From NCBI GenBank assembly GCA_022340665.1, contig JAJDNM010000023.1:1-37457 (forward strand): 37,457 nt of DNA, in the 5' to 3' direction. Both the position numbers and the translations under genes were made by a program. The notes below the pieces were generated by a model. It was not told where the DNA came from, did not search any database, and saw nothing but the letters and a program-made list of their open reading frames with translations. Positions 8,563 through 22,415 of this stretch are shown one piece after another; within the stretch, counting starts at the first letter, position 1, and every line of letters starts with the position of its first letter. The stretch is from Acidobacteriota bacterium. Lineage in GTDB: Bacteria; Acidobacteriota; Thermoanaerobaculia; Thermoanaerobaculales; Sulfomarinibacteraceae.

Positions 8563-9276
8563 TCAGTAACTCCCGAATTCCCTGGCGTGGACGATGAGGA
8601 CGAGGACTTTTTCAGAATCCTCGGAATTGCCGGCGCCAATATAGACGGTCTGGTTGGGGGACAGGAGAACGCGAGTTCGAAGAATTTCGTTGGCCTTCAG
8701 AGTGCCGTCTGAAGCGAGCTCGGTTCGCTCGAGAACCAGATGTTGAAGTTGGAGACGATTGCCCGGGTCTGGACTGCCCCAAGGGGTCTCGCTCGAAAAA
8801 TGCGGCACCTGTGGGACGAAGGACACACGGAAAGACGATCCGAGCTCGGCCTGCGCCCTCGAACCCAGTACGCCTTCGATGGTGGAGGCACCGATACGGT
8901 GGAACGAATCGACTTTGTACATTCGCCGCAGCCGTTCCTCGACCTCGACTTCGTCGATCGAGCCATAAGGCAGGGCCTTGCCACCTTCGAGGAGATCGAC
9001 CCGAATGCCATATGAGCCAGGCACCTGGTCGAGCATTTCAATCAGCGCCGTCACACGAGCAATGATCTCGGGATCATCCTGGACGACAATCCTGGAGAGC
9101 TTCGGCTGCAGAGTCAGACTGCCCGTATCAGACAGCAGACCCTGCACGGCATCCGACGCCTCCGACACCGAAACGTGTTCGAGCCTGAAGACCCTCGACA
9201 TCGTCTGCCCTTCGGTTGCAGAAACCGACGCGGCAATCACAGCGATCACCAGAAACACCAGAGACCGCCTCAACAT
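8563..9276 (-). CDS. Exported protein resembling a secretin N domain
   Basis: The start is taken as the ATG at 9276, just after the anti-sigma stop, giving 237 residues; a longer frame merely overlaps that gene. Residues 1-22 form a signal peptide (MLRRSLVFLVIAVIAASVSA). Residues about 28-90 contain FRLEHVSVSEASDAVQGLLS and a following RIVVQDDPEIIARVTALIEMLDQ. This is the pattern of secretin N1 (NolW-like) domains: short hydrophobic strand, helix, then 'I.v.D.p..i..v..li..LD'. The remaining 140 residues are beta-rich and unrecognised. No secretin barrel is present. A periplasmic accessory that binds the secretin ring or senses its state is a reasonable guess, given its place between anti-sigma and gspF. 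Confidence 0.6.
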   Translation of the reverse strand: MLRRSLVFLVIAVIAASVSATEGQTMSRVFRLEHVSVSEASDAVQGLLSDTGSLTLQPKLSRIVVQDDPEIIARVTALIEMLDQVPGSYGIRVDLLEGGKALPYGSIDEVEVEERLRRMYKVDSFHRIGASTIEGVLGSRAQAELGSSFRVSFVPQVPHFSSETPWGSPDPGNRLQLQHLVLERTELASDGTLKANEILRTRVLLSPNQTVYIGAGNSEDSEKVLVLIVHAREFGSY

Positions 9277-9788: not shown

Positions 9789-10364
9789 TCATCCCCTCTC
9801 GGATGCGGGTAGATACTCCGGGAAACGCTCTTTGAGCTCCCTTCGCAGCACCTTCCGAGCCTGAAAAACGTGATTACGAACCGTGGTCGCGGAACAACCC
9901 AACACCTCCGCTACCTCCGCCGTGTCGAAACCACTCATCTCCCGCAGCACGAAGGCGCTGCGCTGTTGCGGCGTCAACTCTTCTACGAGCTGCCCGAGGA
10001 TATCGTCGGCCTCGCTTCTATCGAGCCGCGAAGCAGCATTTTCACCGTCTCCAACCAAGCGGAGCCGATGCTCGGTCCCTGCCTTGTGAGCCCGCTCCCG
10101 ACTTGTCCGAGACCGCAGCAGGTCGATGGCGAGGTTGGTCCCGATACGATAGATCCAGGTAGAGAAACTGTAGCGGGGATCGTATCGGTCGAGTTTCTGC
10201 CAGGCCTTGAGGAACGCCATCTGCACGACATCCCACGCCTCGGCTTCATCAGCGAGGATTCTAAACACAGCCCGGTGAAGGCCGCCCGAATGCCGCCGGA
10301 CCAACTCGGCATAGGCATCCTCGTCACCTTCCTTGGCGGCCTGGATCCACTCGCGATCACTCAT
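9789..10364 (-). CDS. ECF-family RNA polymerase sigma factor
   Basis: This protein has about 191 residues from the ATG at 10364 (MSDREWIQ), which has a GAGGCG ribosome site. An in-frame ATG at 10424 would add 20 residues. Region 2 (about 8-80) holds FRILADEAEAWDVVQMAFLK and YSFSTWIYRIGTNLAIDLLR, the -10 recognition and core-binding segment. Region 4 (about 125-180) has LTPQQRSAFVLREMSGFDTA then EVLGCSATTVRNHVFQARK, the -35 helix-turn-helix. It heads the pilus/secretion operon with its anti-sigma gene one base downstream, so autoregulation is likely. The exact ECF subgroup cannot be assigned by eye. Confidence 0.93.
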   Translation of the reverse strand: MSDREWIQAAKEGDEDAYAELVRRHSGGLHRAVFRILADEAEAWDVVQMAFLKAWQKLDRYDPRYSFSTWIYRIGTNLAIDLLRSRTSRERAHKAGTEHRLRLVGDGENAASRLDRSEADDILGQLVEELTPQQRSAFVLREMSGFDTAEVAEVLGCSATTVRNHVFQARKVLRRELKERFPEYLPASERG

Positions 10365-10534
10365 GGCCGCCTCGTGACGCCCGCTGAAGTCCACAGGCTG
10401 CACACACAGGTTCTCCCTCACCATCGTTCCCCGTAACTGTTTACGGAGGTCCGAGGACTCGCGTTGGTCTCGTCAGAGAGGATCCTAGCACCACGATCGC
10501 GTCGGAACCGACCATGACCACGATTCATGGGAGT

Positions 10535-10563: not shown

Positions 10564-10582
10564 GAGTTAACACTTATTGATC

Positions 10583-10689
10583 CTCGATACTCAATGCTCG
10601 ATACTCGATACTCGATGTTTGGTTGCCGCATCTGTGTCCCCAGGGGCGGGTAGGGGGATGGAGTGTCGAGTATCCAGGATCGAGTATCC
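10583..10689. repeat. CTCGATA heptamer cassette with G-rich core
   Basis: Five consecutive 7-mers at 10583-10617 follow CTCGAT(A/G), with one variant, CTCAATG. A core of about 46 bp carries GGGGCGGGTAGGGGG at 10643-10657. After it, two TCGAGTATC units (around 10664-10688) are inverted copies of the same heptamer, so the block could fold into a long hairpin. The gap between the sigma gene and the selenoprotein gene (10425-10736) holds only this and the promoter. Confidence 0.85.
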
Positions 10690-10736
10690 GCCCTTCGGGA
10701 TCAGCTAAGATCCTGCTAGCGAGCATGGAGGGTCGA

Positions 10737-10958
10737 ATGGACATCTCGATCGAATACTGCGTGGTTTGAAACTACGAGCCTCGGGCCGCCGGACTGGCGG
10801 CCGAGTTGGACCGTGAGTTTGGTTCATCAACCGATCTGATCAAAGGGAGGAATGGCGACTTCGAGGTCGTAGTCGACGGGAAAACCGTGTTCTCGAAGCG
10901 TGCCCTCGGTCGATTTCCGGAAGACGGAGAGGTCGCCACAGCGATACGACGTCTATAG
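10737..10958 (+). CDS. selW: SelW/Rdx-family selenoprotein (in-frame TGA = Sec)
   Basis: Reading through the TGA at 10767-10769 gives 73 residues: MDISIEYCVVU then NYEPRAAGLAAELDREFG, with a later LIKGRNGDFEVVVDG and VFSKRALGRFP, ending at TAG 10956-10958. These are hallmarks of the Rdx/SelW thioredoxin-like family. They comprise a first beta strand ending in Y-C-x-x-U, a helix, 'I.G..G.FEV.V.G', and 'VFSK...GRFP' with a closing helix. The CxxU redox pair places Sec exactly where Cys or Sec occurs in homologues. A strong ribosome site GGAGG (10727-10731) lies 5 bases before the ATG. A SECIS-like hairpin follows the TGA. The role is probably thiol redox protection in the cytoplasm. A standard gene caller would miss it. 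The Sec machinery genes (selA, selB, selC, selD) are not in this window. Confidence 0.92.
10780..10805 (+). promoter_or_regulatory. Bacterial SECIS element
   Basis: A ten-base-pair stem pairs CTCGG-CCGCC (10780-10790, with one bulged G at 10785) with GGCGGCCGAG (10796-10805), capped by the five-base loop GGACT (10791-10795). The loop begins 21 bases after the TGA codon and has G at its first two positions, which fits the bacterial SECIS consensus (loop roughly 16-37 nt from UGA, G in the first loop positions). It would bind SelB and deliver Sec-tRNA. Confidence 0.85.
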
Positions 10959-11007: not shown

Positions 11008-11997
11008 CTACTCCGGTTTGCGATCGTCCGATCCTAGCCGTCGGCGATAGATGTGCCGCTCGAGAATTCGCGAGTATGGTGTCCAGGCCTCGTCGTCGGA
11101 TCCCTGAGCTGCGATCGCCTCCACCATCCCCGCCATCTTCGAATCCAGGTTGTCGACCATGTGCACCAGAAGGGCTTCCGGGGTCTTAGGCCGACGGGGG
11201 GAGCCAAACTCGTACTCACCGTGATGGGCAAGGAGAATGTGCAGGAGCTGGCGTCGGGTTTCGGGTGGGAACGACTCCAGCTCGGCTATCTTCCTGTCGA
11301 CGTACAACGTCTCCATCGGAATATGGCCGATTAATCTGCCATCGTCCGTGTATTCGATCGATGCACCGATATCGAGCTCCCAGATCTTTCCGAAATCGTG
11401 CAGCAGGCATCCAGCAACCACGAGATCGTCGTTCAGTTGGTAGTGCCGCGCCAGGTCTCGCGCCACAGTGGTGACTGACAGGGAGTGTTCGAGTAGGCCG
11501 GAGCGAAAGGCATGATGCATCGAGCGAGCCGCCGGCGCAGCCTTGAACAATCTCTCTATTTCCGAATCCGAGAAGATCCTGAACAGGAGCTGGCGGAGGT
11601 TCGCGTCAGAGACCTCTTCGATGAGCCTGTTGATTTCCTTCCACAGGTGGTCGGGGTCTTGAGCCGATGAGCGCACGAAAAGATCGTCTTTCACCGATTC
11701 ACCCGGAAGGAGTTCGGCCTGGCGCACCACCACCTGCAGTTGCTGGTTGTAGCGTTGCACCTGGCCTTTCACCGAGACGACGCTGCCGGGCTCCAGGGTC
11801 TCCCGAAGCTTCTCTACGTTCTGCCAGACCAGGGCCGCCACCTCGCCCGTCTTGTCCCCCAGCGTGGCCGCGAGATATGGACCCCCTCCTCGGCGCTGAC
11901 GAACATCTACCCCGCGTACCGCATAGCACTCGTCGACGTCCGTGCCGGCACGCAGGTCCCTGATCCACACTCTTTTCGGGTCGCTGAGTGCAGACAT
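11008..11997 (-). CDS. YhaM-like 3'-5' exonuclease (OB fold + HD domain)
   Basis: This protein has 329 residues from the ATG at 11997, chosen because it follows the upstream stop directly and begins with the conserved region; longer frames overlap surA. Residues 15-110 form an OB-fold nucleic-acid-binding domain (AATLGDKTGEVAALVWQNVE, then GSVVSVKGQVQRYN). Residues about 150-290 form an HD phosphohydrolase domain with HHAFRSGLLEHSLSV and the HD pair in CLLHDFGKIWEL, then HILLAHHGEYEFGSP. This combination is that of YhaM/CBF1, a manganese-dependent 3'-5' exoribonuclease involved in RNA turnover. It ends the ribBA-mfd-foldase cluster and is convergent with the selenoprotein gene. Confidence 0.88.
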   Translation of the reverse strand: MSALSDPKRVWIRDLRAGTDVDECYAVRGVDVRQRRGGGPYLAATLGDKTGEVAALVWQNVEKLRETLEPGSVVSVKGQVQRYNQQLQVVVRQAELLPGESVKDDLFVRSSAQDPDHLWKEINRLIEEVSDANLRQLLFRIFSDSEIERLFKAAPAARSMHHAFRSGLLEHSLSVTTVARDLARHYQLNDDLVVAGCLLHDFGKIWELDIGASIEYTDDGRLIGHIPMETLYVDRKIAELESFPPETRRQLLHILLAHHGEYEFGSPRRPKTPEALLVHMVDNLDSKMAGMVEAIAAQGSDDEAWTPYSRILERHIYRRRLGSDDRKPE

Positions 11998-11998
11998 C

Positions 11999-12970
11999 TC
12001 AGGCGCCGCCCAGGTTGGCGAACACGATGTCGAGGTACTCCCGGTGGACCTCGACCAGATATTGCTGCCGGAGCTTCTCCACAAGCCCCTTCGTCTGGCC
12101 TTCGTAGCTTTCTGCCGAACGTTCTCTTCGGAGTTGCTCGGCAACCTCGTCGAAGGACTGGTATCCCGCGGGAATCCTCTGTACGAGGCGGACGACCTGA
12201 ACACCTCCGGGGACAGTCAGCGGATCCGCTACGCCACCTTCCTCGAGCGGTTCCAGCGCTCGTTTGAGATCCGGCCTGCAATCGTCCACCGGAATCTGCC
12301 CGAGCTCCTGAAGCTCTGAGCCGGCAAGGGTTGCCTCGGCTTTGAGGTCGGCCCCGTCCCTTACCCTTTGCACGAGCCCCTGCGCACGGCGGTTGAGATC
12401 GGCCGCTCCTGCTTCATCCGAAGTCAGAAAGACCTGTTCCAATTCGACCATTGCCGGCACCCGAAATTTCTCCTTCTCGACCTCGTACTGCTGCTTGAGC
12501 TCTTCTTCGGTGATCTCGACGGGCCGCACCTCTCCCTGAACCGTGCGTTGCACAGTAATTGTCCTCCGATAGCGCTCGCGCAACGCTTCGACTGTCAGGC
12601 CCGAACTGGCGAGGGCCTGCTCCCAGGCCTCATCATCCTGGAGGTTGTTTTCCTCTCGGAGGTTGGCGAGAGCCTGATCCACCATCGCGTCGTCAACCGT
12701 GAGGCGCTTCTCCGTCGCCCGCTCCATCAGAATCATCTCGCTCACCATTTGTTCGAGGAGCATGTCGGTGAACTGGCGCAGCTCTTCGTTGTTCGGCTGG
12801 TTCGGCATCTGGGTGAGCTCCTGGCGCACCCGTTCGGTAAATTCGGATATTGTGACGATTCGATCGTTGACGCGAGCCAGGATCCCCTCGACGAGAACCC
12901 GCTCCGATGCCTGAATCGGCACGGCTGCCATCAGGACACCGATCAGCAATCCTGGAACTCGAAAGCGCAT
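11999..12970 (-). CDS. SurA-like periplasmic chaperone / peptidyl-prolyl isomerase
   Basis: This protein has 323 residues from the ATG at 12970, preceded by GGAAGGATAGGAAA and 4 bp after the upstream stop. A signal peptide ends near VPIQASE. The N-terminal SurA-type chaperone segment (about 27-165) contains VNDRIVTISEFTERVRQEL and LLEQMVSEMILMERA. A parvulin-like domain (about 175-275) follows, but its active-site residues are not well preserved. It should escort outer-membrane proteins, including possibly the secretin, across the periplasm. It sits next to a second foldase, which suggests a divided pair. Confidence 0.85.
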   Translation of the reverse strand: MRFRVPGLLIGVLMAAVPIQASERVLVEGILARVNDRIVTISEFTERVRQELTQMPNQPNNEELRQFTDMLLEQMVSEMILMERATEKRLTVDDAMVDQALANLREENNLQDDEAWEQALASSGLTVEALRERYRRTITVQRTVQGEVRPVEITEEELKQQYEVEKEKFRVPAMVELEQVFLTSDEAGAADLNRRAQGLVQRVRDGADLKAEATLAGSELQELGQIPVDDCRPDLKRALEPLEEGGVADPLTVPGGVQVVRLVQRIPAGYQSFDEVAEQLRRERSAESYEGQTKGLVEKLRQQYLVEVHREYLDIVFANLGGA

Positions 12971-21207: not shown

Positions 21208-22415
21208 GGTGTAGCGTCCTCATCGTGATAGAGCAGGATGCCTTCGAGATGGTTTTCGAAGTCGGTCACTGACGCACGCCATGAATCGAAGAGGTGTTCG
21301 AAACCACGCCCCTCTTCGATGCATCGTCTCGCCTCCGGCGAGCCGGTCAAGAGATCCAGAGCCGGGACTTCGCTGACGAACTCGTACGGATCCGAGCGCC
21401 AGGTAAAGTCCGTCGGGTGCAGGTCGTGGATCGTCTTGAGGAGGTGCAGGCCAAAGGCCACTGGTTCGAGAGCATCACGATCGACAAGGTGTGTTTCGAC
21501 GCCCGCACAGACCTCATTGGCGTGTTTTCCGAACACCGGTCGAAAGCGTGTCGGGCGGAAGGCGACCCCTGAAAGGTCGAGATCGCGCAGGTTGGATACG
21601 AGCCTCTCCGCGTCGATCCACGGCGCACCCACCAGGTGGAAAGGTCTCGAGGTCCCGCGACCCTCAGAGAGAGTCGTTGCTTCCAGAAAACAGAGGCCGG
21701 GGTAGAGAGAAGCCGTTTCCAGAGCCGGCATGTTGGGGCTCGGCAGCACCCAGGGAACATCGGTGTCGTCCAGCCAGTCACGCCGTCGCCAACCCCGGCA
21801 CGGAACGACAGTCAGTTCGAGCTGCGGATAGCGCTGGCGCTGCAGCAACAGCGCAATTTCACCCAGAGTCAGCCCGTGACGCGCAGGCACCGGTAGCTGG
21901 GAGACGAAACTCTCGAAGCCTCGCTCCACCAATCCACCCTCCCGCATCACTCCGTTGATCGGGTTCGGCCGGTCGAGGAGCATGACTTCTACAAGTGCCT
22001 TTTCGCAAGCCGCCATGACCCAGTCCATGGTTGCAGCGAACGTGTAGTAGCGAGAGCCGATATCGGGCAGGTCAACCACCACCACCTCGACACCGTCGAG
22101 GTCCTCCTGCTTTGGCGCGAGCGTTTCGGCCGAGCAGCCGTATAACGAGCGCACTTCGCAGCCGGTAAGCTCATCCCGAAGATCTTCCACCGCCTCCATG
22201 TCCTGGGCGACTCCGTCGAGACCGTGCTCTGGCGCGAAGAGGCGAACCAGGGGTCCGGGATTCACGGCGAGCAGGGCCGTCCGGGCTGGATCGAGCCTTG
22301 CGGTCACCGTCGCCTGGTTGGAGAGCAGGGCCCAGCCGCGGCCGCCGATCAGCTGCGGTTTTTCGAGCAAGATTTCGAGGCCAGTTTGAACCCGTTGCAT
22401 AGCCGTATGGTACAT
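21189..22415 (-). CDS. DUF1343 / NamZ-like exo-beta-N-acetylmuramidase
   Basis: This protein has 408 residues from the ATG at 22415, with GAGG upstream; ATG codons on either side are alternatives. DUF1343 features are clear: GLEILLEKPQLIGGRGWALLSNQ near the start (first 20 residues shown by the GLE...LLSNQ pattern), LFAPEHGLDG, VVVDLPDIGSRYYTF, DRPNPING and LPSPNMPALETASLYPG. NamZ of Bacillus in this family removes terminal N-acetylmuramic acid from peptidoglycan fragments. There is no signal peptide, so action on imported muropeptides in the cytoplasm is likely. Its last codons and TGA stop lie within the inverted-repeat element. Confidence 0.88.
   Translation of the reverse strand: MYHTAMQRVQTGLEILLEKPQLIGGRGWALLSNQATVTARLDPARTALLAVNPGPLVRLFAPEHGLDGVAQDMEAVEDLRDELTGCEVRSLYGCSAETLAPKQEDLDGVEVVVVDLPDIGSRYYTFAATMDWVMAACEKALVEVMLLDRPNPINGVMREGGLVERGFESFVSQLPVPARHGLTLGEIALLLQRQRYPQLELTVVPCRGWRRRDWLDDTDVPWVLPSPNMPALETASLYPGLCFLEATTLSEGRGTSRPFHLVGAPWIDAERLVSNLRDLDLSGVAFRPTRFRPVFGKHANEVCAGVETHLVDRDALEPVAFGLHLLKTIHDLHPTDFTWRSDPYEFVSEVPALDLLTGSPEARRCIEEGRGFEHLFDSWRASVTDFENHLEGILLYHDEDATPSPCDS

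Follow-up and report, generated by a model that had tools for sequence, protein, structure and literature searches.

The stretch at 10737-10958 on the forward strand of the window (the whole 37,457-nucleotide stretch of DNA that was analysed) almost certainly encodes a SelW-like selenoprotein of the Rdx family, in which an internal UGA would be read as selenocysteine (Sec) with the help of a SECIS hairpin. The window belongs to Thermoanaerobaculia, since the named organisms most closely related to it are Thermoanaerobaculales bacterium Prado005 and Candidatus Sulfomarinibacter kjeldsenii (Acidobacteriota). The frame opens with ATG at 10737, runs for ten codons to a TGA at 10767-10769 and continues for 62 codons to a TAG stop at 10956-10958, giving 73 codons in all, exactly as an earlier, sequence-only reading had described it. 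The strong GGAGG site in that description is also present, as a GGAGGG ribosome-binding site at 10727-10732 (forward strand) that ends 4 nt before the ATG, and most of the close relatives shown have a GGAG-type site before the start. No plain ORF of at least 60 amino acids under translation table 11 occurs at the selW locus on the forward strand.

Read through the UGA, this frame gives a full-length Rdx/SelW protein, which begins MDISIEYCVVU NYEPRAAGL (U being Sec, at residue 11) and carries GRFP further on. The Pfam Rdx profile PF10262 matches with 68 bits (cut-off 22.6; E = 8e-19) on both sides of the UGA, and the read-through protein also passes the curated cut-offs of NCBIfam NF041051 (SelTWH; 95 bits, cut-off 88) and TIGR02174 (57 bits, cut-off 34). 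These matches cover nearly the entire product, and phmmer recovers solved SelW-related proteins with it. Alignment to Rdx/SelW sequences, proposed earlier as a check, thus returns a full-length family match, and the SelW/Rdx assignment made from the sequence alone agrees with both the profiles and a predicted thioredoxin-like Rdx fold. The AlphaFold model behind this prediction, built from 36 homologues with Cys substituted for Sec, has a mean pLDDT of 95.2. With this model as query, the top 21 Foldseek matches are chains of bacterial Rdx/SelW-related structures, and SelW-related structures superpose with a TM of about 0.9 and an rmsd of 1.1 (TM 0.93 for 2fa8). Cys8-Val-Val-Sec11 lies between the first strand (3-8) and helix 14-28 in the model, where the family has its CxxU/CxxC motif, and this loop between strand 1 and helix 1 is, as modelled, the redox site of the fold.

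The CxxC proteins 2fa8 (A. tumefaciens Atu0228) and 3dex (S. avermitilis SAV_2001) have the same fold (TM 0.88-0.93) at 30-40% identity, but carry Cys where the focal protein has UGA. Mammalian SELENOW, whose motif is CxxU, shares the Rdx fold with weaker similarity (2npb; phmmer E 0.003, TM 0.64), as does MIEN1/C17orf37 (2ljk; phmmer E 5e-7, TM 0.77).

Reading UGA as Sec requires a decoding apparatus, and the earlier reading had claimed that the genome encodes SelA, SelB, SelC and SelD, naming a complete lack of such genes as evidence against itself. Such a lack is not what was found: the focal genome has selA (495 bits), selB (337 bits) and a tRNA-Sec (selC) with anticodon UCA. For selD, the assembly (97% complete) has only hits below the cut-off. 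The best of these, on contig C83, was rejected as selD; it is a single 521-residue frame that joins a HypE-like AIR-synthase domain to a HAD hydrolase (L011 1432-2997).

The missing selD speaks for the alternative that the Sec machinery is not functional here, with selD truly lost and the selW gene on its way out. We consider this very unlikely. Across the class, selD exceeds the cut-off in 137 of 149 genomes, including three of the same genus, and in two same-genus genomes it encodes Cys and adjoins an rRNA methyltransferase-like gene (a name read from the sequence, not from a profile match). The selD-flanking gene of genome G108 matches the focal contig C94, which is 21524 bases long, as far as base 21506. 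Because the flanking gene runs to the contig end, the selD site is missing rather than empty, and selD probably, if not very probably, lies in an assembly gap just past the end of C94. Moreover, selA, selB and three UGA-containing genes look intact. Among the selD loci themselves (L058-L081), most of the class has an in-frame UGA and the focal family has Cys (TGC), so a switch between Sec and Cys in selD within the class is possible.

Sec decoding probably serves at least three genes in the focal genome. A ranking of in-frame TGAs by the coding signal of their own frame and by a SECIS-like hairpin, which covered about 2.2 Mb of the focal genome, placed SelW first. The notion that SelW is the only selenoprotein of the genome was rejected, as two further UGA genes were found. 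The first encodes a PrxU-family peroxiredoxin (L355 5787-6389, forward strand; C141 near 85928) with UGA at the peroxidatic position (FTFVU), a PrxU profile score of 380 bits (cut-off 270) and a SECIS-like hairpin with a GGUC loop, and is a probable second selenoprotein. The other, a TlpA/ResA-like thiol-disulfide protein (L336 8919-10328, reverse strand), has its UGA at 9234-9236 in the motif FWFPTUGGC, followed by a SECIS-like hairpin with the loop AGUUG, and is a probable third. None of the three molybdopterin oxidoreductase matches of the focal genome contains a TGA.

The position of the UGA in selW is conserved far beyond the focal genome. Rdx matches occur in 131 of the 149 class genomes, and all complete matches have a TGA in frame; the few matches free of a stop are all fragments that do not cover the site. 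All 91 class loci that were read, comprising 82 orthologues and 9 members of a second, longer paralogue group, have TGA at the same residue. A scan whose query starts after Sec, and is hence blind to the codon at that position, gave the same result in named genomes: 80 of 80 loci have the TGA there, some of them in records with the titles Deltaproteobacteria, Eisenbacteria, Myxococcota and Planctomycetota. No complete copy without the UGA was found in the class, and the UGA aligns with a Cys of CxxC homologues. Cys forms in the wider phylum sample make up a distinct CTQCRW-type subgroup, and for this reason were set aside as a poor control for the hairpin. Measured against seven relatives, dN after the UGA is 0.17-0.26 with dS above 1.1, and before the UGA pN is far below pS, which shows purifying selection on both sides of the codon.

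This conservation decides against a decayed Rdx gene, in which the UGA would have arisen from an ancestral Cys codon by nonsense mutation and the remainder would be a pseudogene. The position of the in-frame stop close to the 5' end and the absence of selD from the assembly would fit such decay, but a stop at one residue in all of the class and named loci, with strong purifying selection after it, makes this explanation extremely improbable. Stops at other sites in close relatives, which the sequence-only reading had put forward as the mark of decay, are likewise absent; the homologues share a single site, with the one exception of an extra TAG in the Rdx match of relative G075, at a contig edge.

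The paralogue group with its own UGA (L127-L135; genomes G021, G055, G063, G026, G022, G025, G131, G019 and G054) comes from other families of the class, mostly has a GCGGCGAGU-type hairpin and was not found in the focal genome.

In eukaryotes the SECIS is located in the 3' UTR, and in bacteria it is part of the coding region and closely follows the UGA. The hairpin in selW (10780-10805, forward strand) is within the coding region, and pairs the arms CTCGGGCCGCC (10780-10790) and GGCGGCCGAG (10796-10805) around the loop GGACT (10791-10795; GGACU in RNA). Its ten pairs form a 6-bp upper stem and a 4-bp lower stem separated by one bulged G. The distance from the UGA to the start of the loop is 21 nt; the ten pairs, the loop and this distance accord with the earlier description. 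Published constraints on bacterial SECIS elements specify a loop of 3-9 nt, an upper stem of 4-16 bp, a G in the first two loop positions, a distance of 16-37 nt from the UGA and an MFE of -7.5 or lower (PMC13188914). The focal hairpin lies within every one of these ranges, with its GGACU loop, 6-bp upper stem (10 bp with the bulge), 21-nt distance and about -15 kcal/mol for the upper hairpin. An Rfam scan of the window gave no matches.

Folding is more stable than in dinucleotide shuffles (z = -2.28), and the margin over synonymous recoding is modest (z = -1.43 for the focal gene, averaging -0.74 over 91 loci) because the motif AAGLAA in the protein already makes a hairpin likely. Nucleotides free of protein constraint were therefore tested, with codon and covariation tests used in place of the recoding test and its weak signal. 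Among the 82 orthologues, the loop Ser codon is AGT in 28 of 28 cases compared with 7 of the 216 Ser codons downstream in these genes (p 1e-30), and the loop Gly codon is GGT in 43 of 51 versus 75 of 496 in the background (p 3e-24). GGC, the commonest background Gly codon, never occurs at the loop position. Pairing at the two wobble-wobble positions of the upper stem persists in 81 of 82 and 82 of 82 orthologues, with compensatory changes (T-A, G-C). In a set of 29 sequences, double-changed cells in the ten-pair helix number 11, where shuffles give 2.9, and the covariation score of the helix exceeds all 500 shuffles (0/500) and all slid versions; the codon and covariation tests correct only partly for relatedness, and the compensatory changes occur in several families. 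Judged by these sequence patterns, the hairpin is a bacterial SECIS under nucleotide-level selection, and the claim that the gene carries its own SECIS holds, with covariation at synonymous sites of the stem and a loop codon chosen at the nucleotide level. Together with the Rdx match (E = 8e-19), the conservation of the UGA, the folding z-score and the covariation exclude a chance origin of the selW frame.

The focal loop GGACU is the sole one with A at loop position 3 among the 82 class orthologues (U in 71, G in 10). SelW in the class may be Sec-obligate: all complete orthologues seen have retained Sec rather than Cys, and the apical loop of the SECIS would meanwhile have drifted from GGUCU or AGUUU to GGGCU or, in the focal gene alone, to GGACU. 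This would hint that SelB recognition has changed or relaxed in the focal genus, a suggestion that we offer only tentatively.

That a suppressor tRNA decodes the UGA as some other amino acid (e.g. Trp, Gly or Cys) is scarcely credible, as it draws on nothing beyond the read-through itself and is opposed by the tRNA-Sec with a UCA anticodon, selA and selB in the genome, the alignment of the UGA with the redox Cys of CxxC homologues, the selection on the SECIS, and the fact that the other convincing read-through genes belong to redox families with UGA at the catalytic Cys. The UGA is thus very probably read as Sec, as first proposed, with the family, the Sec-UGA and the SECIS each supported by independent tests.

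Under Sec decoding, translation would start at the ATG at 10737 and the ribosome would meet the UGA at codon 11. SelB bound to the downstream SECIS hairpin would deliver Sec-tRNA(UCA), and after insertion of Sec, translation would proceed to the TAG. The gene product would be a small thioredoxin-like protein; its C-V-V-U redox motif sits between strand 1 and helix 1, and the protein most likely acts as a selenol/thiol oxidoreductase.

Bacterial SelW-like selenoproteins have been known since at least 2005, and both the family and the mechanism are established. They made up the largest selenoprotein family of the Sargasso Sea set, with 48 genes (PMC1088965), and very few Cys forms occur in Sec-using bacteria (PMC1794560). 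The focal protein shares their CxxU motif, size and fold (PF10262, NF041051, TIGR02174; PMC1088965, PMC1794560), as well as the in-frame UGA and, after it within the coding region, a SECIS, and has no family-defining difference. As a member of a well-known family and an instance of a class-wide trait, it is less surprising than the sequence-only reading implied, and knowledge of how selenoproteins are made is unchanged. Nevertheless, with this finding a conserved selenoprotein joins the gene content of Thermoanaerobaculia, a group that is largely uncultured and as a whole Sec-decoding; the literature searched has no mention of this class together with selenoproteins. The synonymous-codon and wobble-pair signals also provide unusually clean evolutionary proof of a bacterial SECIS, and the gene could be used as an example in training SECIS models.

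The surroundings of selW are syntenic across the family. A divergent ECF sigma factor gene lies on one side (9789-10424, reverse strand), which does not imply a functional link to selW, and a convergent gene for an OB-fold/HD-domain protein on the other (11008-12204, reverse strand). Upstream of selW by 48 bp, at 10578-10689 of the window, is a repeat of the heptamer type, GATACTC, in two inverted 31-nt arms. In a same-genus genome, the intergenic DNA next to selD (L060, about 2720-2835) has dozens of short matches in the focal genome. Both are probably interspersed palindromic repeats, which need not form one shared family.
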